DNA of 64,000 bases from Isoetes taiwanensis (Eukaryota; Streptophyta; Lycopodiopsida; Isoetales; Isoetaceae). Position numbers and translations under genes: made by a program. The stretch is taken from NCBI GenBank assembly GCA_021234155.1, contig JAJEKV010000001.1, positions 1,239,927 to 1,303,926 on the forward strand, given 5' to 3'. This document shows, one piece after another, positions 21,969-51,537 of this stretch. The notes beneath the pieces were generated by a model, which did not search any database, had not been told where the DNA came from, and worked only from the letters and a program-made list of their open reading frames with translations. The first letter of the stretch is position 1. The number at the start of each line of letters is the position of its first letter.

Positions 21969-22124
21969 CGCCATTCCTGTATACAGAAAACTTCATTAAT
22001 ACAAAAACTTTTTACGACAGTGGATTACATCAAGCCTTCTTGATTAAATCTTTTTTCTTTATTACTGTCTTCTTGATAGATAGTAAGCAAATCTGAGCTA
22101 AGTCGTATTTAATTAAAGTGGGAC

Positions 22125-23012
22125 TCATTCCATTCCCATTTTTTTTCGGAACCCGGTTAATTTACATAAAAAGTAGCACCCCGACCCGAAAACTATCCTA
22201 AATTCAATTTTTGAATAAAACTCAATCCGAAGCTTTGCTCCAGCTTTTCCTGTGTTCGCGAAGTCGAGAACAAAAACAATGCAATTGAAACAAAGGAAAT
22301 TCATTAAAGTTTGAAACCAAAGATCTAGTTGAAAAAAATTTTTATTAATAAATTGAACAGATACAATGTATTTTACATGGGACCGCAGAGACCATGGCGG
22401 TCTTGTTGCCACTACTGATTACATCATCTTGGTAGGTGGTCCACCTTAGGGGATTAACTTGTAGGCGCTTCTTCATGCCGTCTGGAAGCCTTTGGGGCAA
22501 CCTCGAAGAGTGTGGAATGCCTCACGTGGAGGTGCCTCTCGAGCTACTGGGCCACTTGCCCACCCGACTTCTCCCTTTCGCCTCCCGCGACCTTTCATCG
22601 AATATGCTCCTTCCCCACCCTCCGTGGATGTTATGCAATGCTTGCAAGATGCTTTGAGCTTGGCTGGTCTCTTTGTTCTTTGCGCTTTTTTATCCCCTGT
22701 GGTGTAGCGAAAGCAACCTCTCTGGGAATTGAGCAACCTTGTCCCAAAGGCGGGCAAGAGTGTAAGCGTGGACCGGGATCGTGCGCTGAACGGTATTTCT
22801 TCCGCCCTTGAGCGGGATCCGCCTCGAGCGTCTCGCGGATGCCCGAGATAGACTGGTGTCCGGACCTGTGCCTCGAACCACCGGAGCAAGGAGAGTATGA
22901 TTAACAATTACGGTGTCATTAGTCAAAACGAAAAGAAAAGAACGCGTTGAAATCAAATTACAACGAGGAGAACATTCATTCCATACAACCGCATCCAATG
23001 ACGTGGAAGTAG
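22125..23012. other. Left internal region of the large TIR element, no gene recognised
   Basis: Overlapping open frames exist on both strands at 22436-23115, but no domain is visible. Half of the TCGACTTCGCGAA palindrome appears at 22255. Confidence 0.5.
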
Positions 23013-23262
23013 TGTCTTTCTCGACTTCGCCGAGTCGAGAAAGGCCCATAAAAGTCAAAGTACAACCATACTCATTAGAATATGGTTGCATCCAATCACA
23101 CACGGAAGCATACAAATGCTTTCACAAACGAAAATTAAGATGCCTTTCATTTCGCGAGTGAGAAAGGCCCAGAAACCCAATGTACAAGCATTATCATAAT
23201 AGATTGTACAAGCATTTCATCAACACGACAAGCATGCCTTTCATTTCGTGAGTCGAGAAAGG
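23013..23262. repeat. TCGACTTCGCGAAGTCGA-type palindromes 3' of the phosphatase relic
   Basis: Three variants occur near 23018-23042, 23143-23167 and 23235-23262, each ending GAGAAAGGC and followed by a short repeated context (AA...CAATGTACAAGCAT). Confidence 0.75.
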
Positions 23263-24339
23263 CATCGAAAACTCAATATACAAGTATATTCATTACAAAA
23301 TGGTCAATACATGTGTTCACGCTCGATTACAATATTCACACAATTTGACTATCGAAAGCGGGGGTCACTCTTCTTGTTCACCAAAGTATTTGTCGTCCAT
23401 AGCTTTTCATGATCGGCTTTGCTCTCCGGATCGGGTTCCGCGGAGGCTCGGATAGTTAAAAAGCACATCGGTGACAAGAATGGCGAAGAGGGATTCCGCC
23501 AAGACAGAGACAGAGTCAGAAGGACAACCACCTATCCGCTCTCATATTCTTCTAGGTCGATATATGGCTTAGCAATGATTGTATTTTGCGCGTTATGATA
23601 GCACTTGTAGGCGGAGTCGCCTATGATCGGGCCGTGTTGTGTTTGCCATAGTCCCGAATAGCTCATAAACCCCGGCCGGCCTTTTTCACCATTATAGGCT
23701 TCCCCTTTGTGATGGCCGGATCGAGGTCCTTCACATGCTCGACCCTTTCGCTTCCCCCAAACGAACTTGAACTTCAAAATGAAATGCCGGAGAACACCAA
23801 GAACATTGACAATATTTTTCTTTGCCATACAAGACCATATGCCCACCCGAATCCCTCGCGCTGTGCACTGGGCCAATAATTTCCTTAGCTCTAGGGCCCG
23901 GATACACTATTTTATGCCTGCTTTCATTGGGATCCGCGAGGTGTTAATCTCGGGACGTCTTTGTCGTGGTATACCGCGGCTAATACTCCATTGACGTCAA
24001 ATATTACAAGCTTGGTGGGACCAAATTGGATCCCGTTGGAGTTTGGCTCACCATATTTCCGGTTCATCGGGATCCAAATTGGGATCATTATCTTTTCGTG
24101 TTCTTTTCGGCTATGGCGGTCTTGCTCGGATTTTCATTCTCATTCTCCTCGACGCGGAACCGTTTGGAATCCATTGACAATGATCCGAGTCGTTGACTGG
24201 AATTCCCTGAAATGATGACATCCGGCCGAAGGAACGAGTTTTTCGACTTCGGCGAGTCAGAATGAAAAGAAAAGGTATTGAAAGGAACGAGTTTTTTCGA
24301 CTCGCGAAAGTCGAGAAACACAAGGCACCCAAAATTAAA

Positions 24340-25870
24340 ACACTACATGGTTTTTTCTATGGTTGTGACTAGAAAACCATTCTACAAAACCAATGGGTGT
24401 TTGGGGTTAATTTCATTAAAACCATATGTGGCTAAACTAGTTGGTCTTCTTATAAGGTCCGTTAAAATGGTATTACGCCATGGTGATTGTAAATGGCTTA
24501 TTTCTAGTGTTTGTGATTGGTATTATATGTTGGTAATGCGTGGATGTGGTACATTATATTGTTTTAAGGGTACGGTTTGTCCATGTGGTATAATGTGATG
24601 GTTGTGGATGTGGTTTCAATGTAGTGCTCTATTCATGTGATTTCATAATGTGGTAGTTATTGTGGTTTGTGATTGTGGAAAACTAGCCCGACTAATTTTC
24701 ATGGTAAATATGCATGGTTCGAATTGTGTTAATAGCAATAAATCATTATTAGTTGATTAGTCAAAGTATTTAGGGTTTTCTATTAAAGCACTATTGTGCT
24801 TATCAAAATTAGATATAACAGTTTTCTTCTAAATGTGCATGGTTTTATAGCGCATTAGGGTCATGGTTATCATTGATAAACTAGTAATGTTATATAGTCT
24901 GAAGCATTTCAAGTTAATAGACTAAAACCATTAAGGACTATGGATGGTTTCTTACGTATTGTAGTACTTATTAAAGTTGGTAATCCACTAATGGCTTCTA
25001 GTGTAAAGCATTTCAATTAATGCATAAAAGGCATGACGCCCTTTCCACTTAAAGAGTATTTGTTAAGAATGATAAACCACTAAACAGTTTCTAGTGTTAA
25101 GCTTCTTAAGTTATGCATAGAAAGAATAGCAATCTTTTCACCGAAGGCCTGATAGTTTCTTCAATCATACTAGCAATGGTGATGATGACAAATCACTACG
25201 TTTCTATGATCTAAAGCACTTTTGGTTAATGAATGAAAACAAGAGCAGTCTTATTGATTATGTATGTATGCATTTGTTCTATGACTACATAGTTTCTTGA
25301 CATTTATGCCTAGTGGTCAAGACTCTTAACCATAAATGTTTTCAGTTCCATAGGCCTAATGGTCAAGACTATTAACCACAAAGGTTTTTCACGTCCAAGC
25401 ATTTAAGATTGATTAAAACAAGTAGTTAAAATATAGTAGTCTATTACTGGTTAAGACTATTAACTATAAACATTTTTCACGTCCATATGCCTATTGGTTA
25501 AGATCATTAACCATAAATGTTATTCATGTACATATGACTAGTGGTTAGGACTATTTACCATAAATGTTTTTCATGTCCAAGCACTTAAAATTAGACTACA
25601 AGAAGCAGTTAGAATGTAGTGGTCTCGTAGTGGTCTCGTAGTGGTTCAGATTATTAACTATAAATGTTTTTCACGTCCATATGCCTAGTGGTTAGGACTA
25701 TCAAGCATACATGTTTTTTACATCCAAGCATTTAATATTAGACTACAAAAAGCAGTTAGAATGTAGTGGTTTCCTAGTGGTTAAGATTATTAACCATGAA
25801 TATTTTTCACCTCCAAGCACTGAAGCTTCTCCTCCATGGTTTCGTAACATTTTAAAATAGTTCTTAACCA
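24340..25870. repeat. Left subterminal repeats of the CACTA element
   Basis: Many diverged units occur, of the type AACCATAAATGTTTTTCACG and TCCAAGCACTTAA, with TGGTTAAGACTATTAACC, spaced about 50-100 bp. The outermost part has ATGGTTTT/AAACCATT motifs that match those at the right end. Confidence 0.75.
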
Positions 25871-26118
25871 CTACCACATTTTGTTTAAAGCATTTGTGTT
25901 CACATATACTTCTTTAATGGCTACATTGCCAAGTAAAGATAGATTGATTTCAAAAATTAATGCCGAAAAGGCTACAATAAATATTACATTGACAATGGAT
26001 CAATATAATAAAAGTAAAACACAATTGCAAGTTCTACTAAGCCCATAAGGCAATATCATAATAAGACATAATAAATAGATGCATCTGTCTTAAGTTTGTC
26101 CAAGGTCTCAATATGCAA

Positions 26119-29100
26119 TCAGCCTGTAAAAGTGACAGTTGAATGGTTGATGTTTCCCGTTCTCCAACCCTCTTTGGAGATTCTCACGATATTGCACTTT
26201 ATGCATGCCATTGCAAAGAGTTTATACAAATCTGAACCCCTCACCTTGGACTTACATAGATCAGAAAATGCCTTCTTGTGTGTCTTATTCAATTCCTTGC
26301 TCAATTTAAGAAGATCTACAGCATTAACATCATCAATCTTCTCCTTGTTAAGCGCAATCATGCATATAATCTTGTGTTTGAGAGGCTGCATTTTTTCCAA
26401 TCTTCTAATCTCCTTTGACTTTGTAGTCTGTGACACGCAAATCACATGAAAATATAAAAAACAAGAATTTCAAAACAACACATTTAATTTCAATGGCAGC
26501 CCCATTATTGTATGATGAAAAAGGACAATTTGAAGTCTAACATACCTGCAAATCATCGCCACTGCTATCATCATCTGATTTTTCCATAATGGAATTGTCT
26601 TCCTTCATTGTGCTTAAATCAGACAGAATTTTCCTCGCTTCAATTTGAGGAACGGGTCGAAGCCTTGATTTTGGCCATCGCACGAACCATTGCTTCATAT
26701 TAGTGCCAAGATCATTTAAAATCTCGAGTTCACTCGTCGGAAATGGCATTGGTAGCTCTTCGGAACCCTTCTCAAGATAATAAATATTTAATGAAACATT
26801 ACCTTCACCAATTGGTATTCCATGTGCCAAACCAGCAGGATCTGTTTCATGAATCAACCCCAAACCAAATTTTTCGTCGCCACAAAGCAAAGACACATAT
26901 TCGTTCTTGCGATATTCTTCAACAACCTACAAGGCAATTGAGAGATATTATTAGAAGGTAATGCTGCCCTGCACTTCCAATACAAGTGAACAATGCACCT
27001 TACAAGTTGAAGACAAAAAAGCTACTAATAACACGCCATTCAGTGAAGTTGCTGAATTAGAAGAAAAGTTCCAGAAGATGGTGGCAGAAATTCAACGGAG
27101 TAAGGAAGCGGAGTCAAATTCACTGCTTCAGGCTGGTCATTTTGCCAGGAAATTCAAAGAAATCAAATATACACCTAAGGAGGTTGACAAGAAGAAGCCA
27201 CCACTTTTATCTACATAAATTGTAAGGGCTGAATTAGCCAGCACTAAAGTAGAATTAGCAGCTGTGAGAGCATGAGCCCAATGCTATGACTGCTACTGTG
27301 TTGTCGCAGAACTGCATAGAGTGAAAGAAGAACTTGCTCATTGAGTAGCCAGCACAGAAAGATTTGAGGAGTCTTTAGTCGTGCGTGATGCAGCTAATCT
27401 AAAAATTTCCATTGCGCATGTGAATACAGCAGATAAAGCTAAATGCTGCTACAGACATACCATGTAGTAATTTCAGCAATAGCATCTTGACCAATGTGTG
27501 GAATATTATCCTTGCAGCATAAACTAGGAAGACATCTCAATTTAATCATTCAAACTATTGTGTACATGAAGCAAAATTCATTTAACAGTGCGTAGAGTAT
27601 ATGTTCTTAAACATTCATCTAACACTATTACTATGCCATCTTCTAATTGAGTACGGGGATGCACTCATGAATGCCTCTCCTGGCTAACTCAGCGCAATCA
27701 AGAATGATCCTGACAAATAGAATATCCCAACAATATGGTTGACATGTTTGTATGGGCATGCTGGTAAAGCAAAAGTTGAATTATCTATCTTTTAAGTATG
27801 GTCCAATGGTGATCATATAGTACAACTGCAGCAAGACTAGCAAGCTCTATTAACCAAGCTACTGCCTAAATATGTAGCACGCAGACTGGCAAACCAACCT
27901 AAACAGCAATATCCAAAGTCTATTACACTACAAGTGACCTAAGTAGTCTGTCTAGCCATGTCCAAAGCATAGCTAAGCCTATTAGACAAGCCATGCAGCT
28001 GCCCCTATCTATTTCAGATAAATTAACAAGCTGACCTAAGCATCCAGAGTAGACCAGCGCCTAGCATATGCATGCGATCTAATGCTAGACTAGCAAACCT
28101 ATCTAAACATGCATCTATCTTTAGCAAGCTAACAAAAGCAACCTGACCAACACAACTACACAATTTGCAGCATATTAGCATGTAGCAATTGCACGCTAGC
28201 AATAGCACCCTGATAAAATATTGCTAAGCAATGCACCATGACCAGCATCTAGCACATGCATGCAACTAGCGCAGGACCAGTTAACAAATCTAAACATGCA
28301 TCTAGCTTTTAGCAGTCTGACCAAACCATCAACACCATATTAAACTACTCTACACAAGGCTACCTGGCAACCTGCAGTATCCAGAATTACAAAAAAGAAA
28401 GTTCTATGAATGCAACATTATGAGGTGATAATACACACCGAATTCACGCTACCATCACTTCGTCGCTTCTTTGCAGCATACGTTACTTGCGTGTCAGTAT
28501 TTCCAAGATCTTCAAAGTCATCATCATCGTTGTCTAACGTCTCAAATCGCTTGTCCATTGCTGAAATTGTCAAGGATTCTGGCCATTGTAGCTCATCCTA
28601 TTACAACAAAGAAAAAAACAATAAAAATCCAAGATGAAAATCCAAGTAAAAATATGAGTTAGGATAGTGTGCATACGTCTATGGCAAGTTCCTCGATCCT
28701 CTTTTGTGCAGCAAAATTCCCTTGCTCAAATGGCAGGTAGGCATCTTTTTCACTGTCAATAATGCTTTTGATTTTAACTTGAATCAAAGCATAGTTTTCT
28801 CCATTAACCTGATTTTGCACTTTTGCAGTTCCTATTACAACCTCCTTACTTGCAAACAAAGATGGACGTTTACAACCAGCGAAGAAGAGATCATTGAAGA
28901 ACTTCAAATGGGTAGTTTTCAAAGTCCTTGTTGAAGCCAGCAAAATAACATCATTATCCTTCTCATAATTCCTTTCATATTCAAACTTTTTGGCGCACTT
29001 GCTCAAGCGCTTTTTCTGTCCACCAATTATTAAATTGATTGTTTCACGGATAAATCTTTCTGGAACAGAATAAGAAACACTAGGCCAGCATATAGGCTTC

Positions 29101-29777
29101 AAGATTCCACTTCCCATGAGATGTTGGATGAGTTTCTCTCTTCGTGCAATCCATTTCTTATTTTCATCACATGGCCTGAATTGTGGCAATGTAAAAATAG
29201 GAAATGTGGATAACACAGCATTGCGAATCTCCCTATGATTGTCAACCATTTGCAGCCACTGAGAACGATGCCCTGTTTTCTTCAAAGCCAACCTACCATT
29301 TTTTAAATCTGGCCCCCTGCTCAATACTGTAAAAACATGGCCAGCTTTTGGGACTTTATCAAATCGTACTTGACCATAACTCTCAAGACGACCATGATCA
29401 CGTCTCACATCCCTTTGTTCATCACTTCTTACATCTCGATCTACAATTGCATCAGCATTTAGAGCTGATTGATGGCTAGACATACCTCCTTTGGACACAG
29501 TAAGCATTGATCCATTTGTACAAACAGTAGAAGAAGCATTGTTCTTGATTTCATCACGCAGGCCCACAATCCCAACAGCCAACCCTCTTACGAAACCTAA
29601 TTCAAGCCAATCATTGAGCTGAAAATTCAGAAAGCTCATCCCATATACCTGCTTCTCAATAACTAATGCCTCCCCAATCTCCACTGGCGTAGAAGAGAAA
29701 CGACTAAAGATATACGCAGCCACATCTTTAGGCTGCCACATTGAGACCTCGGAGAGTGTTGGCAGAATTTCAGCCAT
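26119..29777 (-). CDS. CACTA accessory gene: SAM-like domain plus DUF8039-like domain, four exons, intact
   Basis: Exons are 29777-28677, 28597-28439, 26926-26546 and 26427-26119. All junctions are phase 0 with GT-AG borders, and the 649-codon reading has no internal stop. Residues about 8-80 look like a SAM-type helical domain (WQPKDVAAYIFSRF ... WLELGFVRGLAVGIVGLRDE). Exon 2 is acidic (DNDDDDFEDLG) and ends in a basic KKRR cluster, a possible nuclear signal. Exon 3 (LLCGDEKFGLGLIHETDPAG, HGIPIGEGNV, LPMPFPTSELEILNDLG, WFVRWPKSRL) resembles the DUF8039 region of plant CACTA proteins. Exon 4 is helical and lysine-rich. Other exons may exist in the 1.5-kb third intron. By position it would be the TNPA-like accessory, perhaps binding the subterminal repeats; that is inference. 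Confidence 0.65.
27040..27450 (+). pseudogene. Coiled-coil protein fragment, decayed
   Basis: The frame reads VAELEEKFQKMVAEIQRSKE, then after a stop AELASTKVELAAVRA, VAELHRVKEELAH and FEESLVVRDAANLKI. The heptad-like pattern suggests a long coiled coil interrupted by three stops. The source protein is unknown. It lies antisense within the third intron of the CACTA accessory gene, so it is probably captured or inserted sequence. Confidence 0.4.
27890..28330. repeat. Diverged tandem repeats rich in CTAGC/ATGCATCTA
   Basis: Units of about 180 bp share AAACATGCATCTA and CCAGC(G/A)(C/T)CTAGCA with GCATGC. The rest of the 27.45-28.4 kb stretch shows no gene. Confidence 0.5.
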
Positions 29778-29989
29778 ATAGATGCAAGCGATCTAGAAGA
29801 AGAGTAAAAGTAGCATCAATACAAATTGGTATATAGAATAAATATGGCACAACTTCCAAACAAATAGTTAATGCAATTGTCAAAAGGCGAGGACTTATGC
29901 AGGTCCAAGTAATCATTTCCAAGTAATTAGGCTGTATGCAGGCAATGCAAGATAAGATAAGGCATAAAAAACCAAAATATCAATGCTTG

Positions 29990-30486
29990 TCTTTTGCTGA
30001 TAACTAATTATTATCAAATTCTTATACCCTGATAACTAATTATTATCAAATTCTTATACCCTGAATAATAGAGATCAATTCTTTAAATTCACTGAAACGG
30101 AATGATTTAAAACGTCCTATAGGATGCAGAGCATTTATTCTCATCGAGAAGCTAGCTCAGAGCTTCTTTATTTCAATATAAACAGCAGGACTAAATGGTT
30201 ATTAGCTCCTACTGATGGAACAAGAACTGCAGGACTAAATGGTTATTAGCTCCTACTGACCATAGTGGTGAGGTAACCCCTCATATGTGTAATACAAATC
30301 TCTGTACTCAATGTTAGCAAAAACAGTACCAGGTCAGCTGAATACCAACATAGATTTGATGCTTAATCAGTGACCTCATCATTTTCTGTGATACCCTCAC
30401 AAATTAACACCAAAAATGGATAGCCAATATGCAGTCCAGCTGCCCGAAGAACTTGTTTTGCAGCTGCCCGAAGAACTTGTTTTGCA
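29990..30486. repeat. Three micro-tandem duplications in the accessory-gene 5' region
   Basis: A 31-33-bp unit (GATAACTAATTATTATCAAA) is doubled at 29998-30062. A ~50-bp unit (GCAGGACTAAATGGTTATTA) is doubled at 30186-30262. A 24-bp unit (GCAGCTGCCCGAAGAACTTG) is doubled at 30437-30484. An open minus frame at 30704-30363 spans the last; its product is unknown. Confidence 0.85.
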
Positions 30487-30839
30487 TTTAAGCAACAAGG
30501 CTCTGCATAATCTGTAAAGAATGCAGGAACTGCTTGTGCTGTTATGATTTCTAATGCACCGACCCATAAGTTATCATTTTTCAATCCTGAATTCATGGCC
30601 ACCACCAAATGCGGCAAAGGCATTGTCCATCCAGGGGAGAGTGTTTGAATTGAATGTAGATATATCAGGGTATAAGAATTTGATAATAAAAAATTCAGTC
30701 TCACAACAATGCCTATTCATGCTGATGAATCCTTATCAGAGTTTACAAATTAACAGACATACCTGAATCCCAAAGCAACAGAGAAATTTCTCACTTTCTC
30801 AGACGAATAGGGCGCCTCTTGTATTGAAAACAGAAATTT

Positions 30840-31130
30840 CTACCTCCTTTAGAACCGCAATGCAAATAGTTACCTGAAATCGTTGAAAAATTCTTCTTGG
30901 AAATTTTCTGGGGCCAGCAATCAGCTAGCCAGCCCCCGTTTCTCTGCCAGCAGCCATCATTGATCATCCTGCCTGGCGAAACGTTCACCGCCACCGCCAT
31001 AAGATTAGGTTTTGCTGGCCGAAACGTTCAATGTATTCTAGGGTTTCGGTAGGCATTAATGCATCATCGTCATGTGAAATAAACAAAATTCCAAAATATT
31101 TTCAATATATAATTAATGCATCATTTGCAT
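30840..31130 (-). promoter_or_regulatory. Promoter/first-exon region of the accessory gene, inverted copy of the transposase one
   Basis: Read on the minus strand it contains GCATTAATGCCTACCGAAAC, GATCAATGATGG and GGGGGCTGGCTAGCTGATTG, ending at a GATTTCAG|GTAAC donor. The + strand region at 34640-34855 has the same blocks in the same order. Confidence 0.7.
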
Positions 31131-31890
31131 AAAACGAAAGTTGTGAAGCATATAAGAAGTGTTAAACCATGCACAAGTTTAACTTGATAAATGTGAAACG
31201 TCTTATAGGTTATGAAGCATTCCAAACTTGACATAAATCAACCCAACAGATTGATTTGTTTACTTTTTTTCAACATTGCCAATTATATTCTGCTGCACGT
31301 TCGGATGTCACCAATAACTAGTTTATTGCATGCTGAAAAAATCATGCGAGGACTATTTTATGTTGGGCAAGAACTTACGAGCTTGGAGACTCAAGCACCC
31401 CTGAAGTATTGTTTGCTATGTCTGGACAGGTGCCAGTGAGGGTATTATCAGATAAACTATGTCATGCAACCTCAACTTCTGACAACAAAAGTGTGCCTGT
31501 GAAGATGTCTTAGGCGGTAAGTACAGTTCTTTCTTTCTTGTGCTCTTTTTCTATTTTGAATTGATTTATGAAGTAACAAAATGTAATATTAAGTACCTTT
31601 TGTATAGCAGTTGATTCGTAGGCAAAAGCCCTCTTGCCTTAGAAGCAGTGTTCAACTTTTAATCTAAAATGGGTTGCCTTTAGTGGAGTTCGAATTAAAA
31701 ATGTCTATTGCTTCTTTTTTCGGACATTTTGTGGGAGCGGATCAGAAGTTTTTAGGCAAGTGCATTTCCATGGTTTGAAGATAGGCAGCCTTTGTGTACC
31801 ATCCAGATTAAATTTAAACAAGTGAGGTTTTCTGATTTAATTTGAATAGGTGTGTAAACATCGTTTGTGATGAATTAATCTGCATTTATA

Positions 31891-34041
31891 AGGTTTATTA
31901 TGGACTAGAAATTCGTCCCTTTATGCCCTTAAACTGGTGAAGTAACATCTCTTTCATTGACCTTTAAACCATATCCTAAGTCTCAGTTTGTTAAACGGTA
32001 ATCTGCGGCCAAACAATGTCTGTTAAGTTGTGGTCACATTATGGCTAAATGTGTTCTTCGTTCTTGAGCTTCGTTCTTGAGCATTAGGTAGATCCTATTA
32101 GTAATGTAATGCCAGTCAATTAACTCAGGAATAGATTAGAGTATAGTTGACTTTCCATGTAAAACAGGCAAGAATGGAAAAGTTGTTACTGGTTGTGGTG
32201 CTTTGAATAATTTAAAAGTTCAATCTGTTCATAAGTGTGCTACCTTTAGTTCAAGTTGTTAAATGTTTGAGGCATGCATTCTCCTTAGGGGGCAGGATAT
32301 GGTAGCAAAAGTTGAAGTATATAGAATTGACTCCAACATGTTGGTCGTAAACCTTAGAAGTAAGGTTTGTTCGCTGAGTTTGACTTAATGTAGAAATTTT
32401 TGCCATAGTAGGAAAAAAAACACGTTTGCAATGGCTAGGAGGAAGAGAGAGAGAGAGATATATGAATACATCTCTCAGCATGTATGTATGGAAGGATGCA
32501 GATAGTTTAGCCTAGCTAGGCTAGCTTTGGTTTTAGTTTACGAATACATATGAAGGGTTTTTCTATTTGCATTTTTCAAGAGTCAGCCATTAGATTCTTG
32601 CTTACCCCTACCAAAAAGGAGAATGACTAAGGCGGATGAAGTACCCTTTCTCTTGGCAGTTGCAAAGAAATAGATTTAAGGGCAACAATGTTTTTTGGAG
32701 CACAGGCATGCGTTTGCCTCCTGTTCAAGCTTTACCTTAGAGCTAATGGAGTAGTTACGTAAGTCCATTTGCTTTTGGGTTCGTTATCTTAAAGCCTCTA
32801 TTCATACGATTGCGGTATGGGAATCTTATGCATGGAAGCTTCTCTCAATGTATGAACCATGGAGGAACTTGCATAAACAACAATACTAAGGTTTATTATG
32901 GACTAGAAATTCGTCCCTTTATGCCCTTAAACTGGTGAAGTAGCATCTCTTTCATTGACCTTTAAACCATATCCTAAGTCTCAGTTTGTTAAACGGTAAT
33001 CTGCGGCCAAACAATGTCTGTTAAGTTGTGGTCACATTATGGCTAAATGTATTCTTCGTTCTTGAGCTTCGTTCTTGAGCACTAGGTAGATCCTATTAGT
33101 AATGTAATGCCAATCCTAGTTTTGACTAACCCGCTCTTTCTTTGAGGCACTTTATTTTTACCTTTCTCTTGTTCTTTTTTTCTGTCAATGAACAAACAGT
33201 TAACTCGGGAATATATTAGAGTGTAGTTGACTTTCCATGTAAAACAGGCAAGAATGGAAAAGTTGTTACTGGTTGTGGTGCTTTGAATAATTTAAAAGTT
33301 CAATCTGTTCATAAGTGTGCTACCTTTAGTTCAAGTTGTTAAATGTTTGAGGCATGCATTCTCCTTAGGGGGCAGGATATGGTAGCAAAAGTTGAAGTAT
33401 ATAGAATTGACTCCAACATGTTGGTCGTAAACCTTAGAAGTAAGGTTTGTTCGCTGAGTTTGACTTAATGTAGAAATTTTTGCCATAGTAGGAAAAAAAG
33501 CACGTTTGCAATGGCTAGGAGGAAGGATGCAGATAGTTTAGCCTAGCTAGGTTAGCTTTGGTTTTAGTTTACATACATATGAATGTTTTTTCTATTTGCA
33601 TTTTTCAAGAGTCAACCATTAGATTCTTGCTTACCCCTACCAAAAAGGAGAATGACTAAGGCGGATGAAGTACCCTTTCTCTTGGCAGTTGCAAAGAAAT
33701 AGATTTAAGGGCAACAATGTTTTGTGGAGCACAGGCATGCATTTGCCTCCTGTTCAAGCTTTACCTTAGACCTAATGGAGTAGTTACGTAAGTCCATTTG
33801 CTTTTGGGTTCGTTATCTTAAAGCCTATATTCATACGATTGCGGTATGGGAATCTTATGCATGGAAGCTTCTCTCAATGTATGAACCATGGAGGAACTTG
33901 CATAAACAACAATACTAAGGTTTATTATGGACTAGAAATTCGTCCCTTTATGCCCTTAAACTGGCGAAGTAGCATCTCTTTCATTGACCTTTAGACCATA
34001 TCCTAAGTCTCAGTTTGTTAAACGGTAATCTGTGGCCAAAC
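31891..34041 (+). repeat. Tandem duplication of a ~1-kb unit, two full copies and a third partial
   Basis: The unit begins AGGTTTATTATGGACTAGAA at 31891, 32889 and 33918, giving periods of 998 and 1029 bp. Copies are nearly identical; copy 2 has an ~85-bp insertion near 33115-33200, and copy 1 has an extra GA microsatellite near 32445. No ORF. It separates the two divergent transposon genes. Confidence 0.95.
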
Positions 34042-34639
34042 TGTACGCCGGACATACAGTTTAGCATTGGGGTGTAAGTTTTATTTGTTAACAATCATAC
34101 CAAACATAAGATGTCAACTTCAATTGTCCAAAAAATATCTTCACAACTTAGAACATTATGAAATACCAATTTCAGCATCAAATGCATAACTATGCAAAAT
34201 ATTATTAGCTTCTAGTCTTCCACATAAATCCCATGTTATAACTTCACAAACTCAACTGGACTATTGCTAACCTTTATTGTTTCAATGATCTCGATCACCA
34301 CAGTGCCTTGTCGATACTTCTTAGATTTATTTTAAAGCAACATGCCTTAAAACATGCCTTAACCTCCTGAGCTAAATAGCAATTTTAACAATATTTGATT
34401 CCTCCTAAGGTATAAATCAACGTTATCCCATGTTCGCTTATCAACTATAATGTTTTAATGGGTCACATGCATATATGTTCTTCATAGCTTGTTTACTCTA
34501 TATGGTTCCTATAATGACTCAATAGACAACAGTATGTGATATTATAGCCGATCTGTGCTCCTGCATGTGACGACCACTCCTCAAATTCCGACAGTTCTAC
34601 TCCACACTTTAGACTCATTGAACTTATTTGTTAAAAATT

Positions 34640-40790: not shown

Positions 40791-40799
40791 CTATAAAAT

Positions 40800-41535
40800 A
40801 CCATTAAAAAAAAAAAAACTCGACCATAGACCATGTTAGCTACTACATTACAAAGATCGACCAATAAAACCATGTAAAAAACCATTAAGAAGTTTAGAAT
40901 CATATTACCCTAGGAAATTAGATGTAAAACCATGTACTAACCATGTCTTCCTTAACAAAAAACCACTAGCATTCTTTCTCAACAAGAAAGTGAAAAAGTC
41001 AACCACCAAACCATGTTAAAAGCCACTAACAATTTGGCAACCCATGTTAGCCTAAAAAATTACGATGAAAAACCTCAAATAAAAAGACATTGTTAAACTA
41101 TGTCTACAAACATTATAGTATTTTCAGTCAAAAACCACTAACATTTTGGCAAGTCGTGCTTGCTTAAAGAATCCAAATGAAAAATCACAAATAAAAGGAC
41201 TTTGTTAAACCATATATATGAACACTGAAGTATTGCCAGTTAAAACCACTCCCAAAACCATCTACATGTATAAAAAAACTATTAAGCATTACTTTCTTAC
41301 TCTCAATGTTGCAAATTGCATAATTAACCACTATGACATGCCAAACTCGTAGCAAATACCTGGATAAAAACCTTCATCAGTCTCAATTAACCACATAAGA
41401 GTATAAACTAGCATGCAAAACCATAGTTCCATTCAAAAAACCACTATAATAGGTGGATTTTATTAAGGAAAATTATTTTTGCATGGAAAACCACTATCAT
41501 AGTGGTTTTGTAGTGGTTATCTATGGTAGTTAAAT
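40800..41535. repeat. Right subterminal repeats of the CACTA element
   Basis: Dense diverged units of AAACCACTAACATTTTGGCA and AACCATGTTA type, spaced about 60-120 bp, run up to the TIR. An inverted repeat ACCACTATCATAGTGGT lies at 41490-41506. Confidence 0.8.
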
Positions 41536-43148
41536 CTTTGGGTGCCTTGTGAAACACCGATAGAGCAAAGTAAACTCACCTCAATCTCAGGTTTTCAATA
41601 ATGTTTTCGGCAACATTCTGGTCCAAACCTTCGACATCCTCGTCTCGTCAGGGTTTGTCTCCCTCGCCCTCGTCGTCTTTCTCGCTTCCATTTGTCTTCC
41701 TCCCTTGAAATGCTCATGAAGCGGATCCGTGTATGATTTGAATGGTTTCAACCATGTCCTTATTTCCAACCACGGATATAGGTTTCATTCCAAACAAAGA
41801 TAGCCCACGAGAGAACGGGCCATTCATGTACCACTCGCGATACAATTTGATCTTCCTCGACCAAAATTTGGTTATGAAGTACTTGATAACTCTTGGCCGG
41901 ATAGGAATTCTATGTATAGGACCGGCCGCACCATCTTTCTCGACCTTGTCCATCGATGGAACATCCTCCATAAACACGCCCCCTTCCGTGGTTCCATCCG
42001 CTCTTGAGAGATCATGAACTTGTCGAGATAATGATGCTCGCTAGACCACCACTTATCCGTGTCGTGGCCGATCTTGAAATCAAACCAAAACTATGTTGGC
42101 AAAGCTTGGTGCCTTCGCAAGCCAAGTCCGCACTCATGATCAAGTTCATTATATGGAGTGCATGATCTTGTTGGTGAAGTTAATATCACTGCCCATTGGG
42201 AGATAGCAGTTGTTTGATTGCCCGGCATGCAAAAGACAAGGAAACCGAAAGTATCCAGTCGGTCATGTCGTGACACGTCTTGTACCAGCGCTCTATGTCG
42301 GCTTTGTCATAAAAAAGTGGGGTCTTGATCATATTGATGGCAAATAGTGCCACGGGTCAGTGCCGTTCGAGACCACCAAATCCCTTGTGTCCCAAAGTAA
42401 CGAGAAATGGGGAGCTATCGTGCGCCTTAAATGGGACCACCGAATCCAAGCTTCCTTTTAATTGCCATATGCGTTCGAGGGAAAGGAAGGGTTTTAACGT
42501 TACTTCCCGGCTTGGTGTTGATGTAGGGTTGACATAGGCGGTTCAATTCCTTCATGTCTTCCTCATCAAGGGCGACCTTTTCCTTGTAATAATCAAAATC
42601 ATGGTATTCATTAGATGCAGCGTTGCAGAACTCCCGTGATGCCTTCTTCTAACCCTTCGCTTTGGGGCGTGGCATAATCCTTTCGTCCTGCAATTTAGAA
42701 CTCTGGTCTTCCTCGGCGAGGATTGTTCCTCCAAGATTTTTGCCTTGTAGGTCAAAGCGTTTCTTTTGTCCGTGAGGCCCTGTATCCTCTTCATGAACTG
42801 CTTGTCAAACAACTTGGGGTCGGCTTTTGCTTGGAAATTCTCCATTCGTCCTTGACTTGCCTCTTGTCCATTGAGCCCATATGTGGAGTCCATTTCTCCC
42901 GGGCCGCCTCGGTGCTAAGAATGAGGTCATATTGGTCGAGAGAGACTCCCACCTTTCCTTGGTGTTCTCTTCTTCTTCTCCTCTTCTTCCTCTCCCTCGT
43001 CATCTTCCTGTCCCTCGGTGAGAACATATACGCATAGTTTCTCAAGGTCTTCCACTTATCAGGGAGCCACGTTTCCTTTAGGGCCGAGGACAACCCAATG
43101 CTTTCCACTTGTTGCCCTAGCGTGTATGATCACGTCGAGGGATAAGGG

Positions 43149-43628
43149 CTGCATTAGGACAATGTACCAATGTCGAGCATGAAAGTATCTACAAACACCG
43201 GAATAAGCGGTAAATAGTAGCCGGGTTTTCTCGACTCTTGGTCGATGAAAGTCCCTTTGAATGTCTAATTTTCTTTTTACTTCTGCGGGTTTTCGACTCA
43301 GTCGAGAAAGCTCTGCATCCTTTGATTTTACGCATTACCACGGCTTTTCATTTCGCGAGTCGAGAAACCCGATGATAATCGGCAAATGTTAGGATGGCGG
43401 GGCTTTTCGACTTCAGCGAAAAAAGTCCCATTGAATGTCTAATTTTCTTTTCTAGCGGCTAAGGGTTTTCTCGACCTTCGGTGGAAAGCTCCACATCCTT
43501 TGATTTTACGTGTTACTCGGGCTTTCGACTCGCGAAGTCGAAAACCCGATGATATATCGGCAAATGTTAGGATGGCGGGGCTTTTTCGACTTCGAGTCGA
43601 GAATGGAAAGATTGAGAGAGTTATTTAC
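43149..43628. repeat. Seven TCGACTTCGCGAAGTCGA-type palindromes confined to one intron
   Basis: Copies lie near 43218, 43288, 43348, 43407, 43468, 43522 and 43583, spaced 55-70 bp and diverged. The region is bounded by a GTAAAT donor (exon end 43629) and a TGCAG acceptor (exon start 43148) on the minus strand. Confidence 0.7.
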
Positions 43629-44079
43629 CTTACGTAGGCGGCTTTTCGCTGCTATTGTGTTCGGCGGTGGCTAATCTTGGCGGCGATTCGGTTCTTTGGC
43701 GTCTCCGTAGAAAGAACTCTGCACTCCGGCTTGGCATATCTATCCTTGATCGCTGCGGCACCTCCTTCTAAAATGCGCAATACTTGAGCCGCCCTCACTG
43801 AATCTTGACCGTCTACAACCCGAACCGGACTTCTTTTTCCCGGATCTTCCTCGGACTTCGGTGAACAACTCACTGTCGATGCTGCTAAAGGTATGACATC
43901 CGCAGGCATTGGATCGCAGCGAGGATGTCGCACCATCGGTTGAAATCTCGGCATGTGTGCTGGATTAAATTCGTGGTGGTTGAACAAGGCGGCATCTCCG
44001 TGCAAACCTTGGCCGTCTAATGTCCGGCGGCGGCTTTGTGATATTCCCAGCGGATAATCTGAGCTAGGCGGCTCCATTT

Positions 44080-45795
44080 TACGTGCCCCTCTCGTGAAAT
44101 CGATCGATCATGCGGATCGAGGTTTGGGGAGTCGACCATATCTTCGTCTCTCCCGTCATCGACTCCTCCCGTGTGGTGTCATCATCCCCATCTTTGTTTT
44201 TGGTGGACTTTTTTGTGTATGAACCACAACTTCATTCCCCAACTGCAGAGTGTTGTAGAGTCTTCAACCTGCGGTAGAAGTGAAGCTCCCGTATTGAGCA
44301 GTTTTTCACGACTCTGGAAATCTCCATACCAAGCTCCACGGATGTTAGGGTTCCGGCCTCCTTCATCCCTTCGGATCCTTCCACCCAAGGTTACGACAAT
44401 TTAAAGCGTAGAGCCTTTTTCGGTGCCCTTAGCCTTGCTCATGGAAGAGTGAGAATAATTTGAAGCTGCTAATTTTTTTGGTGCGATAGAACTTACTCTT
44501 TGGCGGGTCCTCGACATATAGTGTTAAATGCTTGAATGGCGCGAGGCGGCGAGAGCACAACACCGATTTTCTTGTACTTATCTCGGGAGCTCTTCTTGTC
44601 CCTTTGGTGTAGAAAGCGGATCTTTCTCCTTCCCACTTGTCGATACCTCGACATACCACCAGAAATCTGCCCATTTGTTTTCAGAAGCTCTGTCTCCGAT
44701 CCCCGATGGCGAAGAATGGAGTTCGGCCGGTGATCACCGGTGAGTCCAGAGGTGAATCTTTGCAAGAAGAAAGGATGGATCGGTTAAGGTATTCCGACAA
44801 AAAAAACCTCGAGCTCACGGGGTGTTTGTCTTCTTCTTCTTCTTTGCCATTTGGCGAAGCATCCCCTCCGGCCCTCGCTTCTTGGGCATGTCATGTCGTA
44901 TGCCCTCTCATCCTCTTCGGACGACTACGTAAATTAAGTTTCCTCCGCTGGCGTTGTGAGTTTTAGGATTTGCATGTAAAAAGATCGGGCGTGTTCTTTA
45001 ATTTGAAGTTAAGGACATGCAATCATTTATGAAAAAAGCGGGCTAAAGGGTTTTAAACCGCGATTCGGCTTTTAGCCAGCCCAAACACTATTCGAGAAAT
45101 TTAATCACATCAAAGGGACTAAGTGAGTGGGCGTAGTTTATCTTCCACTAGCGGCATTGGGGAACTTCGAGGTCGGAGGGGGATCATCGGCTGTTAGCGA
45201 CTTAGGAATGGCGCCGCGATCGCGGTAAGGCGCTAATGGCGCCTTGCATATGTGTGTTTTTCCGTAGCGTCCCTATTGCAAGCAGATTGATTTGATCGAT
45301 GAAACGGAGCTAAGGTAGGAAGCGGAGAGGAGCTGCAACACGGAACTCTACAACGCGGCGCCATGGAAAGGGGATCTGGCGAGAATCGCGGTGATCACAG
45401 TATTAGATGCGAATACACTCTTGAAGAGACCAAATGAAAAGCAAGAGACTACGGGTGAGGCTGCGGGATCCGTGATCTGATGGCCCAAGGAATTACTGGC
45501 GTGAAAGAGGTGAGTTTGAGAGATGCCTATGTTATTTCGCTTGTAGAACATGCCGTATGTGTTTAAATAATGGAACTGCTGATAAGCTCGACGGATTCAG
45601 TGTTTCCTTGTCCAGCATTTTTCAGCTGCGAGAGATGATTTACTCTCTAGGTTGAGATGCCGGCAAGGAAACATTGGATCGGGGGTAAAGAACAGTTCCG
45701 TTATAGGTCTGTTTTTCCATGGACTGTTTACTTGGAATGTTGTACATAGATCAGGCTAGGACTAAGGCCCAGGAGATGCGGTTCAAATGCATCCT
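44080..45795. other. Upstream of the phosphatase relic; no recognisable gene
   Basis: Open frames on both strands at 44171-44966 may be further decayed 5' exons on the minus strand (for example KLWFIHKKVHQKQRWG), but no domain or sustained frame supports a call. Confidence 0.4.
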
Positions 45796-47130
45796 CTTGT
45801 AGTTAGTCGGAGGGGCCTCCACCCTGTCCGAACCACTCCTCTTCGCCAATATTAGGAAGATGGTTGAAGGAGAGTGGCTTTCATAAGGCAGGGCTAGAGG
45901 CACTTGGGACTAAAAGCGAGGAGAATAGAAAGTGCAGTACTTGTAGAGAATGCAAGCCTTGGCTTCCTCACTGTGGTTTCCCACGTGGTTAGTTGTAGAG
46001 GCCTCCACCCAGTCGACCCCCCCCCCGCAATATTAGCGAAGATGGTTGAAGGAGAGTGACTCTGACTGGGTCGAGGCCACTGCTACCAGACACAGGAGAA
46101 TTGGCTGGCTAAGGGATTCTCGACTTGCGAGTCGAGAATGCTTGGCTTCCTGTCTACATTCTCGACTCGCAAGTCGAGAATGCCTTAACCATCCAGAACT
46201 CCGGTTAGTACACATGGAGTGCCGGTTGGGTAAGGCATTCGGCTTCATGGCCGAGAATGCATCTGACAAGCTCTGTGGTTTCCCGTGGTTAGTTGTAGAG
46301 GCCTCCACCCAATCGAGCCCATCCCTTCACCAATATTCGGACAAAAAAGGTTCAGAAGGAGCGGTCTTTGATTGGGTAGAGAGCCCTTTGCCACACACGA
46401 GGGAATGGGTTGCTAAGAGAGTTGGCTGTGAGCCGATCAAAAACACTTCCCTTCGCAATGTCAGAGGAAGATAGAAGGAGAGTGTTTTAAGGCTGTCTGC
46501 AGAGGCCAGCTCTAAGTGCACTAGAGCACTGCGTTTTCTCGACTCACGAGTGAAAGCGACAACAACTCGTGGTTAGTCGTAGGGGCCTCCACCCAATCGA
46601 GCCCATCGCCAATATTCGGCGAAGATGGTTCGAAGGAGGCGGTCTTTGATTGGTAGAGGCCGCTGCGACCACCACAGGAGAATTGGGTTGCTAAGAGTTG
46701 GCTGCCGGAGCAGTCAAAACCACTTCCCTTCGCAATGTCAGGAAGATAGAAGGAGAGTGGTTGAGATCGTCTGAATAACTTCTAAAGTGCACTAGAACTG
46801 CGTTTTCGACTCGCAGTCGGTGAAAGCGCCAACACCTCGATGGTTAGTCGCCGGGGCCTCCACCCGGTCGGAGCCGGTCCTCGCGCAATATTCGATGAGC
46901 ATGGTTGAAGGAAGTGGCTTTCGAGGCTGGGTGGAGGCTACAACTGCACAAAAAGCCATTGGCGGTATCACATTCGACTCAATTCGAAGGCTGCTGCAGG
47001 GTTCTAAAGAATGTGAAGACATTGGGTAGGCTGTGCAATCGGATCGCGAAGTCGAGAATCCCTCAACCGCCAGCGGTCGAGTGTACACTCCTCTTCGCGC
47101 CTCGAAGTCGAGAAGTTCTCGACTTCGAAG
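45796..47130. repeat. Tandem array of about five diverged ~280-bp units carrying palindromes
   Basis: The block GGGGCCTCCACCC...TCGAGCC...CAATATT...GAAGATGGTTGAAGGAG recurs at about 45808, 45990, 46295, 46577 and 46850. Several units also contain TTCTCGACTCGCAAGTCGAG palindromes (46110-46170, 46535, 46805, 47095-47130). Long open frames across it come from the repeat. Confidence 0.75.
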
Positions 47131-48425
47131 TCGAGAGAAGAAACTTTAATGCTTCTGGATTGTTGGCAAGCTGAAGTATTCTCAGCTCGCCACTCTATCT
47201 GCATGTCTCTGCGATTGGATTTCTTTGTGAGTTAGAAATGGAGATTACGTGAAGCAATTCCTATTCTAATTCTTCTTTGGGGAGAAAAGACATTCCTAGT
47301 TATTTTTGTTAATGCTCTGCAATATCTTACTTCCTAAACACCGGTCTCGATGATTTCTATCTCGGTTGCTTGCTACTATAACCACTATTCTCACTTGTGC
47401 ATGTACAATGTATTCAATTCAACCACAAAGCAAAGAAAAAGATAACAAAAAGCGAAAAACAATACAAAAGATTAATAAGATTAATGAGAAAAGCGAGAGA
47501 AAAGTGGAGAACGATCTGAGAGAAAAGTGGAAACGATCTGAGAAAAATGAGATAAAAAAGGGTATGATATTACAAAAACATACTGGAAGATTTTCTTTTG
47601 GATGAGGAGGAGGCTTCCGGGGAGTTAAGCTTCCATGTGGGTATAGTCGTTGACAAAGCGTGAATAAGGATTTGTCGGTATGTAAATTGTATCGGGGATT
47701 AATAAGAGCCTCTAACAACGTAATATAAGAAAAAATGCACTAAAAGACTTCGAGAAAACTAAAAGCGACACTAAAAAGGGCCTCACTTTCTTCTCGGTGA
47801 TGCGCCCGCTCGAACAATGAATCTGGCGAGAACCGTATTGGAAGGCGTCTGATCCGTCGACCAAACCCATTTGTCATAAGATGTTGGAATCGCTCGGTTC
47901 GATCGATCGCTGATCGGTAAAGCGGGCGCCTAAGGAAACGAGGAGCGAAGAGTGAGAGAAAAGGGGAGGAAGAATGGTCGGGGGAGAGGAAGAGGGGTGC
48001 GATTAATTACTGGCTGCACCCTCGAACCTCGTAAAGTGCAATAAATATACTGTCGCGTGTGGGCCATGCCCTCCATGGCGTGGCGGTCGCGGATTCTTGG
48101 CGTGGCCCACGGTTTCAGCCTCTGAAGAGGCGCCACGTGGCCATGCCAAGATATGAAAGGGTAGGTTATATGTTTATATATGTTATCTTATGTATTTAAT
48201 AAGGTTTCAATGGTTGAATAGTATCAATGGTATATATGGTTACAATGTTCACATATGGTTTAGAAATAGGTGTGGTTGTATGCTTTAATATGGTTATATG
48301 ATTTTAGTTAATATGGTTGTATGATTTAATATGGTTATATTTAATATGTTTGTATGGTTTTATATGGTTCATATGGTCATATTTGTGGTGTTTGGGGCTA
48401 TATGGTTTTAATGTGAGCTTTTTCA
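47131..48425. other. Non-coding; AT-rich ATATGGTT low-complexity tract at 48160-48410
   Basis: No gene supported. 47440-47560 is AG-rich with a doubled GAGAAAAGTGGA(G/A)AACGAT unit. Confidence 0.6.
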
Positions 48426-48429
48426 TTCA

Positions 48430-51340
48430 GGGAGCATGTGAGATGAGTAAAATGGAGCCGGGGAAGTCCAAAGGAGGCCATTGCCCCTAGGCTCCAATGG
48501 AGGAAGATGGGTTGCCTTTTGTTGCACCCTTGCAACCCCAGACGGTATTCTTGAGGGCATAATAGCTGCCAGTTGATCCATTTGATAGTGTGAATGATGA
48601 GAGGTCGGGAGATGAACATCTTGGAGTTGGCATTGTAAAGCTTCTTTTCGAAGTTGATACTATCATGTCGAGGGAAGCTCTAGTGATTGCATTGTGTGCT
48701 CAGGGCTCTTTGGAGTCCCAAGCTCGGTTGAGATGGCCAATTAGATTTATTACACACAAGAATGGTGATACTCTAGAATGTCCTCTTGAACTACACACCC
48801 CAAGGCCCACCCAAGGCCATGTGGAAGATTTGGTGGTCGATGAGCATCCTTTGATCACAAGGGAAGAGATGCTATGTCTTTCATAAAAGGCAGCCAAAGG
48901 TGCCCAAGAGGCCTAGAAGTGACAAATATTTAGAAAGGATGGAAAGTATGGCACCAACCAAAGAAAACACGGAGGCAATTAGGGGACAAGAGTGTTGCAA
49001 CCTAGATTGCAAAGGTGCATTACAATGTGGATGACCTCGTAAGTGGATAAGGTCCCAATACATTGGACGACTTCAAAAAGATAGGATTAATTTCATTTAC
49101 TCCTTGTGTAGGAATTCCGGCTATGATGAAAACACGGGGCCTACCGCTATATCAATTGAGGGAATGAAGGTATGTATGAGAGCATTGAGATGGATTCTTG
49201 GGGTGAGCAAGTCTTCATTTTCTGAGAATCTTGGGAGCGGGTTAGAAAAGGGCACACTTTGTTCCAACATGGTAATGCACTCACTTTGAAACCTAGAGCA
49301 AATACTCTAAAGGCCATTGCGGTCTTCGAGAGCTTTGTGAGATACATGTCTCAATCTATGCCCCACAAGTCGAAGGTGAGCGAGCACGGTGTGTGAGTGG
49401 TGCAAAATGTTGCCACAACACTATATCCAAAAGGAGTGCCTTAAGGAGGTCAACTCCATCCTAGAAACCTTCTTGGAGGTAGGCCTCTTTCTCAATCACG
49501 TTTCACAAGTTATGGAGCACTCACTTCTCGGACGTGAGTGTCCTACAACACATGCCATTCTCAAAAGTGCAACACTTGCATTCAACTCAAGGATACACTT
49601 GCATCAACTGCAATAGAGAAAGAAAGAATGGCAATTAGGGAGCAATTTGCAGATCACCAAAGGGACCAAATATCATGTAGGCAGTTGTATTGGCGGTGGA
49701 GAACATTTTTCTCGAGATCTGTGGGACAAATTTTTGTGTATAATTCATGATAAGATGGACCAACACAAGACTTTCTTGCCAAAGCTAGATCCTTTACCCA
49801 AGCGTTGTCAAAGCGGCTTTTCGGATGAAAGTAAGTCGGCGGGTGTATTAACACATGGTCATGGGCTGGAACATATGGTCATTTTGTGCTTGATCTATGG
49901 AGAGATGATCCAAACTTCCATGTGAGCTCTATTTTCAAGTGCTTGAGAACACTAGAGAAAGGATCGATAGAAGGGAGGAGGTATTCCCAAAGACCCATTT
50001 TGAGGCTTTGATGGATGATCAACCGCTTTGTTACCAAAGGCGAGATAAAAAGCTCACATCCAAGGTGTCTAGTGAATCAAGGAGGACTTGGGATGATTAC
50101 CCCTTACTTGAGAAATCCTTGCACGAGGAGCTATGTGTTCAGTTGGACAACTGTTGGAAAGAAAACAAGAATAGATGGATGTTTGGGGCAATGTCATACT
50201 TGACAAAGCGGTGGGAGTATTCAAAGTTGTGAAAGTGGGATTCATGATGGTTGGGCATACGCATGATGATATAGATGGATTCTTTGGAACTTTCTCCACC
50301 AAGCTCAAGAGAGAAAACGTGACCACTCTCCCGAACTAATGGATGTGTTTGAGAGCTGCATTGACCCCAACCCAATGGCTTTCTTGATGGATGAGGTTGC
50401 AGATTGGAAATCATTTGTAGAAGGATACTTGCTAGATGGCAAGGACCAGTTGGAGGACACACAAAGCCACTTCAATTCAAGTTTTGGGTTAGGGATGGAA
50501 TACCAATCATGCAATATAAGTGGAGACCAGGTGACAAGTTGTGGATGCCTGTACAAGGTATCGAAGTTGTGGCAAAGGGTGTCTTTGGTGAAGTTCTCAT
50601 TCCTAAAGGGCAGACCAAAACCACTACCTCCCTTCAAGGCAGGTCAAAGACTCTAGCCAAGCGGTGAAGGGCATCAAGGATTACATAACGCTTTGGGATG
50701 ATGTTGAAATGGAAAGCACACCTCCACTCTTAAGAAAAATCAAATGGACTCCTAATCAAGTCTTTGGGAGAAAGTTGTAACATGCTTAGAAACTGAACGA
50801 CCATGTGGGAGGGAGCTAAGAGAGCGGGTTCTTGCCGGAGTCAAGATGGGAGGGTTCTCAAGGTGCAAGCACGTCTAAGAATGCTCACTTGGGTCCCAAG
50901 TGGTTTGTGGGAAGTAAGGCCTCAAAGAAGTGGTTTGATCTTCCCGAGTGGGATCCCTTTGAGGACATCAAGGAAGGATACTTTGTGCTAGTAAGGCCCG
51001 ATGATGAGGATCTGTCCAATATGGTTAGGGTGGCACTCTCGATGTGACCACCACTATGCTCGATGGAGAGGAGTTGCGTCTGGATTCCAAATTCAATATT
51101 GGGAGCCCATTGGGAGGCACAAGAAGGGCAACTTGAAGGAGCAATACACCGGCTATTTGGGAGAAGAAGTGGAGGCCAAATTATGCTGACCCTCAAAGGA
51201 GGGAATTGGTGGAGTGTGTGGTATGGTCATATCCAAGTTCTCACATTGCAAAAGACAACACACACAAGATCCCAAGAAAGGAGATGGACAAGGCCATGAG
51301 CAACCTCCATGCTATATCATTGTATGAGGGTGCATAATAT
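48430..51340 (+). pseudogene. Decayed transposase-like gene with HTHDDID motif (DUF7869-like)
   Basis: Pieces in shifting frames make one protein: CDTCIQLKDTLASTAIEKER (49575-49635), KFLCIIHDKMDQHKTFLPK (49725-49790), VLTHGHGL (49847-49870), VQLDNCWKENKNRWMFGAMS (50130-50195), MVVGHTHDDIDGFFGTFSTK (50245-50310), KPLQFKFWVRDGIPIMQYKW (50463-50525), and WFDLPEWDPFEDIKEGYFVL (50930-50990). The end reads DPQRRELVECVVWSYPSS and stops near 51337. The LDNCxxENKNR and GHTHxDIDxxF motifs are typical of a transposon-borne family that I associate with DUF7869; the label is from memory. At least eight frame changes or stops occur. It lies just inside the right 29-bp inverted repeat and may have mobilised the large element. 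Confidence 0.6.
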
Positions 51341-51537
51341 TGAGAAGTTTGAAAACTTTCTCAACTAGTGGTTTGTAAAATTTATGAGGAAAACAAGTAA
51401 CCCAATTCTATGTGTGTCATGTGTAATTCTATTCAAGCAATCAATTCAGAAATTTCTTTTATGGTGTGTGAGTCCCATTTTCAGTCCGAGTCCCAAAATT
51501 CAAGATTTGTCCCACTTTAATTAAATACGACTTAGCT

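Follow-up and report, generated by a model that had tools for sequence, protein, structure and literature searches.

A high-copy transposon family of Isoetes taiwanensis with a probable DUF7869 transposase and a putative phosphatase-like accessory gene

We analysed a 64,000-nucleotide stretch of the lycophyte Isoetes taiwanensis (contig JAJEKV010000001.1, positions 1,239,927 to 1,303,926; hereafter the window), in which a first-pass annotation had described a unit at 22096–51537 framed by an identical inverted repeat and holding a phosphatase gene, a transposase-like gene and a nested CACTA element. With a probability of about 80%, we conclude that this unit is a decayed copy of a high-copy family of cut-and-paste transposons with 25-bp terminal inverted repeats (TIRs) and 4-bp target-site duplications, moved by a protein of the Pfam family DUF7869 and carrying two accessory genes, one encoding a NIF/FCP1-like phosphatase and the other, here called the third open reading frame (ORF), a protein of ~550 amino acids. 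Copies in the genome have paired directional ends, target-site duplications and a recurring gene order, and an empty site is present. Mobile elements that have clean ends, target-site duplications and an empty site are thereby tied to a Pfam family of unknown function, whose proposed role as transposase is therefore directly testable.

Results

Ends, target-site duplications and empty site

The framing 29-bp repeat, AGCTAAGTCGTATTTAATTAAAGTGGGAC, starts at 22096 on the plus strand and recurs exactly on the minus strand, ending at 51537, as annotated; its first 14 bases have no further occurrence elsewhere in the window. Its tentative division into an AGCT target-site duplication of 4 bp and a 25-bp TIR, AAGTCGTATTTAATTAAAGTGGGAC, was borne out by other copies, which carry different 4-mers at the place of AGCT. 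In the genome (1,658,258,908 bases in 1110 contigs), the first 20 bases of AGCTAAGTCGTATTTAATTAAAGTGGGAC, which start with AGCT, had six exact occurrences: the window pair, a pair on contig C665 with the same two end types ~17.2 kb apart, and one unpaired end each on C281 and C1035. Allowing up to three mismatches, the 25-bp TIR occurred 1887 times on the plus and 1931 times on the minus strand, and a reversed-pattern control in the same genome search gave 0 occurrences.

Among the first 30 TIR loci listed, counted by eye, 15 had a left-type interior (TCATTCC, in one case CCATTCC) and 15 a right-type interior (AAATCT); since the interiors differ between the two ends, they belong to one directional family. 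Sixteen elements were readable at both ends, with sizes of 3.5–17.2 kb (29.4 kb in the window, nested element included), and 15 of them were flanked by exact 4-bp duplications, counting one (L051) that is ambiguous because it lies within an A run. The duplications were not strictly AT-rich, with ACAG, TGGT, AAGG, AGCT and GATT among the copies. Six further pairs were assembled from single-end loci, four of which matched at 4 bp; another, L025/L026, had no matching duplication and consisted of two right-type ends, and so is no true pair.

The AGCT empty site that the annotation had suggested looking for was found on C1030 (842794–843059), which aligned end to end with the joined window flanks (280 bases) at 91% identity and contained, in a 100-base stretch, a single AGCT and no element. 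The junction was spanned by 9 of the 14 rows matching the joined flanks, with C1030 included and the window's own two uncounted. Paired inward-facing TIRs, a fixed 4-bp duplication and an empty site are among the marks of a cut-and-paste TIR transposon.

The window element contains the following features, the phosphatase among them having been recognised with the help of a compact copy of 5.1 kb (L056) that has exact TIRs and the exact duplication TTCT:

22096–22099: left target-site duplication, AGCT
22100–22124, plus strand: 25-bp TIR of the left end; the left-type interior TCATTCCATTCCC adjoins it on the inner side
23368–24022, minus strand: NIF/FCP1-like HAD phosphatase gene with broken frames, recognised by tblastn with the L056 frame, by its motifs and by the NIF match of the L056 frame
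23981–23998, 23826–23840 and 23604–23618, minus strand: phosphatase motifs DVNGVL, IWSCM and DSAYK, respectively
24319–41551: nested CACTA-like element with the 15-bp TIR CACAAGGCACCCAAA; AAA duplication at 24316–24318 and 41552–41554
35474–38929, plus strand: open frames of a transposase gene belonging to the nested element, with Transposase_21 at 36229–37041
41600–42971, minus strand: third ORF, without a family assignment; frames interrupted in this copy, ~550 amino acids in copies that keep it open
43300–48300: spacer dense in palindromes and AGTCGAG/CTCGACT motifs, with higher divergence between copies
48855–51296, plus strand: DUF7869 gene with interrupted frames, encoding the probable transposase
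49746–49763, 50143–50157 and 50256–50276, plus strand: DUF7869 gene motifs HDKMDQ, LDNCW and HTHDDID, respectively
51509–51533, minus strand: 25-bp TIR of the right end; the right-type interior, AAATCTTGAATTTTGGGAC on the minus strand, adjoins it on the inner side
51534–51537: right target-site duplication, AGCT

Once the nested element is subtracted, the outer element measures ~12.2 kb, in agreement with the ~12 kb first estimated. The frames of all three of its genes are broken; given that the published I. taiwanensis assembly was built with Nanopore reads (PMC8566536), some of these indels could be assembly errors.

Recurring gene order across the genome

Comparison of copies revealed a recurring order of left TIR, phosphatase (minus strand), ~550-amino-acid ORF (minus strand), spacer, DUF7869 gene (plus strand) and right TIR. 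Arrangements were counted among top-scoring rows only, comprising the best 150 of 6860 phosphatase candidates, 215 DUF7869 places (216 in the comparison with the third ORF) and 137 third-ORF rows. Phosphatase and DUF7869 genes lying within 20 kb of each other were divergent in 38/38 pairs, as in the window, and 7 of the 9 pairs at 20–60 kb shared the window arrangement. Phosphatase and third ORF were co-directional in all 49 pairs within 3 kb, with start-to-start distances of 0.89–1.24 kb, and in 51/51 pairs within 60 kb, while third ORF and DUF7869 gene were arranged as predicted in 38 of 40 pairs within 20 kb. In addition, an exact inward-facing TIR lay within 4 kb downstream of 23 of 31 gene matches (contigs up to C162, among the TIRs listed), namely 6/6 plus 4/5 for DUF7869, 9/10 plus 2/5 for the phosphatase and 2/5 for the third ORF; the only other TIR within 4 kb of these matches was the far end of a compact element on C124, met twice. 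First-look candidates numbered 6860 for the phosphatase, 12930 for DUF7869 and 2944 for the third ORF, and with thousands per gene the family makes up a sizeable part of the genome.

On C1035, at ~13401893–13417442 (L012, L013), the block of phosphatase and third ORF occurs twice, ~15 kb apart.

The DUF7869 gene

Positions 49909–50229 of the window matched DUF7869 in Pfam (8.9e-09, 35.6 bits), and the same domain scored 110.6 bits in L056. HTHDDID, the motif by which the annotation had recognised a transposase, was exact in 6 of 8 non-window loci scanned, with HDKMDQ and LDNCW upstream of it, so that the protein has three conserved acidic motifs as read from sequence. The annotated gene is thus present and belongs to the DUF7869 family, and its transposase role is suggested by position and constraint. 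Between-copy divergence, taken in 200-base steps, was lowest at 49.3–51.3 kb, within the DUF7869 gene (2.0–6.4%), and amounted to 4.8–9.9% at 48.3–49.3 kb in the 5′ part of the gene, 8.2–10.7% in the phosphatase and 7.0–19.0% in the remaining steps. The ratio of non-synonymous to synonymous differences (pN/pS), pooled over pairs with codons near gaps excluded, indicated the strongest constraint for DUF7869 (0.28); for the third ORF, treated in two parts, it was 0.39 and 0.48. A looser first count by pair gave 0.16–0.50 for DUF7869 and 0.48–4.77 for the phosphatase; in that count L065 was unusable, with one codon aligned, and L062 is the window's own copy.

Scans of viral contigs and of prokaryote genomes, which reach close relatives only, detected no DUF7869 relatives, a PDB sequence search with the protein gave nothing useful, and the name DUF7869 was not found in the open-licence literature searched. 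A DUF7869 profile returned 9902 first-look candidates in the genome, the best 150 of which scored 166.8–187.4 bits and were mostly stop-free; further DUF7869 families beyond that of the window are thus abundant and look younger.

The phosphatase and the third ORF

A HAD/FCP1-like phosphatase gene, as annotated, is present: the opposite-strand frame of L056 matched NIF at 41.8 bits against a curated cut-off of 21.8, while no Pfam match was obtained with the window exon by itself. L056 shows the motifs DVNGVL, IWSCM, a lysine and IIDDS, the last of which reads IIGDS in the window copy. The catalytic motif I of NIF/FCP1-like phosphatases is DxDx(T/V); DVNGVL departs from it, keeping the first Asp and having Asn at the second position. 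By its domain, the predicted relation to these phosphatases stands. The gene had been taken for cargo, and it is indeed carried by the element, although as a component of the family and not as a one-off capture by the window copy.

Stop-free frames were found in 105 of the best 150 of 6860 phosphatase rows: 50/56 at 90–100% identity, 27/37 at 85–90%, 19/35 at 80–85% and 9/22 at 70–80%. A neutral simulation gave stop-free shares of 0.55–0.59, 0.24–0.27, 0.14–0.16 and 0.06 in the same bins, so that the observed share was higher in every bin, with the simulated top bin ending at 99.5% and the observed one including L056 itself. In our reading, the copies that amplified were under constraint and decayed freely afterwards.

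The third ORF emerged from the comparison of copies, immediately upstream of the phosphatase and on the same strand; its 137 scored rows derive from 2944 genome candidates, frames of ~530–552 amino acids recur, and it is absent from L056. The annotation had assigned the sequences flanking the nested element to a single split gene. Judged by other copies, they are two adjacent co-directional frames, the phosphatase and the third ORF, the latter absent from the annotation; these may still be exons of one gene. Searches with the third ORF in Pfam, NCBIfam, PHROGs, PDB and phage records yielded no noteworthy match, and PDB searches with two profiles gave nothing useful. A likeness of its C-terminal part to a methyltransferase pattern, seen by eye, found no support in profile searches and is not claimed. 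For the phosphatase, no relatives were found in viral contigs by a scan reaching close relatives only, and PDB sequence searches with the window exon and the L056 protein were likewise uninformative.

A second multi-copy NIF group occurs on many contigs, with open frames of ~180–435 amino acids and scores of 65–85 bits, above the 41.8 bits of the L056 phosphatase. We examined this group for proximity to DUF7869 and claim no tie: among 95 of its rows, a few lower or partial ones having been set aside, one lay near the best 150 DUF7869 profile matches, one near the DUF7869 places of the window family, in an orientation other than predicted, and none near the third ORF.

The nested element and internal repeats

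The nested element (17.2 kb) has CACAAGGCACCCAAA at its start and the reverse complement of that sequence at its end, so that its TIR begins CACAAGG, and a 3-bp duplication, AAA, lies on each side. It resembles CACTA elements, as annotated, with a Transposase_21 match at 36229–37041 (1.7e-05, 24.6 bits) that falls under the curated cut-off of 28.6. It is missing on C1035, where the sequences to its left and right in the window are directly joined, and on C281, where they lie ~0.3 kb apart. Within it, a ~1-kb tandem duplication at 31876–34144 is 96–99% identical over long stretches, with a third, partial copy at 67%, and open frames of 129 and 377 amino acids at 26540–29792 (minus strand), which had no Pfam match above cut-off, perhaps form its second gene.

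The palindrome family noted on both sides of the nested element is real: AGTCGAG/CTCGACT occurred at 1.49 per kb inside the 16 elements, those with other interiors included, whereas the flanks, 34.6 kb of which come from the window and make up most of them, had 0.025 per kb and base composition alone would predict 0.11; the 17.2 kb of the nested element contained one. A role in transposase binding or as a silencing target is possible. Several copies share the TIRs and have an interior unrelated to the 12-kb element (L046–L055, L057, C128 [L058–L059] and C665 [L007–L008]); most measure 3.5–5.8 kb, with 11.2 kb on C128 and 17.2 kb on C665, the latter containing a retrotransposon-like RNase H frame seen by eye.

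Discussion

Evidence against the proposed reading and alternatives

Several observations weigh against a DUF7869-driven family with two functional accessory genes. At the ends, L055 lacks an exact duplication, one pair of single-end loci, L031/L032, agrees only over a 5-mer that is offset by one base, and 8 of the 31 gene matches have no exact TIR among those listed, although these may carry mismatched TIRs or fall beyond the TIRs listed. The DUF7869 protein is the probable transposase by position and constraint, and only 27 of its 104 rows were stop-free, with a longer query. The phosphatase shows the weakest constraint, with a pooled pN/pS of 0.72 (pairs 0.35–1.51); in the copies read, Asn replaces the second Asp of motif I wherever the motif is undamaged, and the stop-free share is biased upward, being drawn from the best 150 of 6860 candidates that are mutually related. 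The enzyme may therefore be inactive, or its sequence nearly neutral.

These last points bear on the possibility that the phosphatase and the third ORF were captured from the host as Pack-type cargo without a role and spread by chance carriage. A pN/pS near or above 1 in several pairs, the D-x-N motif and the absence of the third ORF from L056 would all fit such carriage. However, the place and orientation of both genes recur (38/38 and 49/49 pairs among top-scoring rows), the third ORF is constrained (0.39 and 0.48) and keeps frames of ~530–552 amino acids, and stop-free phosphatase frames exceed the neutral simulation in every identity bin, which leads us to regard passive carriage as possible but rather unlikely.

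It is far less probable, in our estimation, that the third ORF and not DUF7869 encodes the transposase. Constraint is seen on the third ORF as well, and it could be assigned to no family, but DUF7869 is the most constrained and slowest-diverging gene, HTHDDID is conserved in most other loci scanned, and L056 keeps DUF7869 and phosphatase between exact TIRs and an exact duplication without the third ORF, although this copy could have moved in trans. Finally, the notion that the two ends come from separate short elements, or are a dispersed motif paired by chance, to which the single ends on C281 and C1035 might lend colour, is refuted for practical purposes by the duplications (15/16), the balanced end types (15:15), the empty site and the alignment of C281 and C1035 to the window element along its whole length.

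Proposed mechanism

In the DUF7869-driven family that we favour, the DUF7869 protein would act as a DDE/D transposase, cutting at the TIRs and joining the element into a 4-bp staggered cut, and the phosphatase and third-ORF proteins would be accessory factors retained by transposing lineages. FCP1/NIF enzymes act on the tail of RNA polymerase II. The likeliest role of the phosphatase would be to act on a host nuclear protein or on the transposase, aiding the expression or activity of the element; if it is under selection, this would point to a transposon acting on its host by dephosphorylation. The CACTA-like element inserted later, between phosphatase and third ORF, and shorter copies with the same TIRs and other interiors were presumably mobilised in trans.

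We further speculate, as an idea with the odds clearly against it, that DUF7869 marks a transposon superfamily undescribed in classification schemes and very abundant in this lycophyte, one family of which would carry, as a dedicated pair, the genes of an atypical FCP1/NIF phosphatase (D-x-N) and of a ~550-amino-acid protein that act on host transcription or chromatin for the benefit of the element.

Comparison with known systems

Among the records listed by searches of open-licence literature aimed at DNA transposons bearing a phosphatase, no eukaryotic family with such a standing gene appeared. Pack-type plant transposons capture genes and carry host-like coding sequence, a likeness to the present family, in which, however, the gene has a fixed place in a large family beside a probable transposase. 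The likeness to CACTA/EnSpm elements lies in the nested 17.2-kb element; the outer element differs in its TIRs and in having 4-bp rather than 3-bp duplications.

Among plant TIR elements, duplications of 4 bp are suggestive of Sola, and by this analogy the family is possibly Sola-like. Sola1 has been recorded for the moss Physcomitrella (PMC9033089). The Sola2 elements of social amoebae are large, with 4-bp duplications, TIRs of 12–21 bp and an extra gene, Fanzor (PMC3627910). On that description, they resemble the window family in duplication length, size and possession of an extra gene, and differ from it in TIR length (25 bp here), in cargo and in that duplications here are not strictly AT-rich. 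Sola1-1_Ec32 of Ectocarpus measures 21.5 kb and encodes, on the strand opposite its transposase gene, an accessory protein whose domains are ParB-like and N4/N6 methyltransferase, nested transposable elements being common in such elements (PMC12477816). Searches of Pfam, NCBIfam, PHROGs and PDB found neither domain in the third ORF, which may still be a distant relative of that protein. Compared by description, the accessory genes thus differ, ParB-like/methyltransferase in Ectocarpus as against, in I. taiwanensis, a NIF-like phosphatase and an ORF in which neither domain was matched, whereas both elements are large and pair a transposase gene, probable in our case, with an opposite-strand accessory gene. 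The nested insertion in the window copy is a further point of likeness to elements of this kind.

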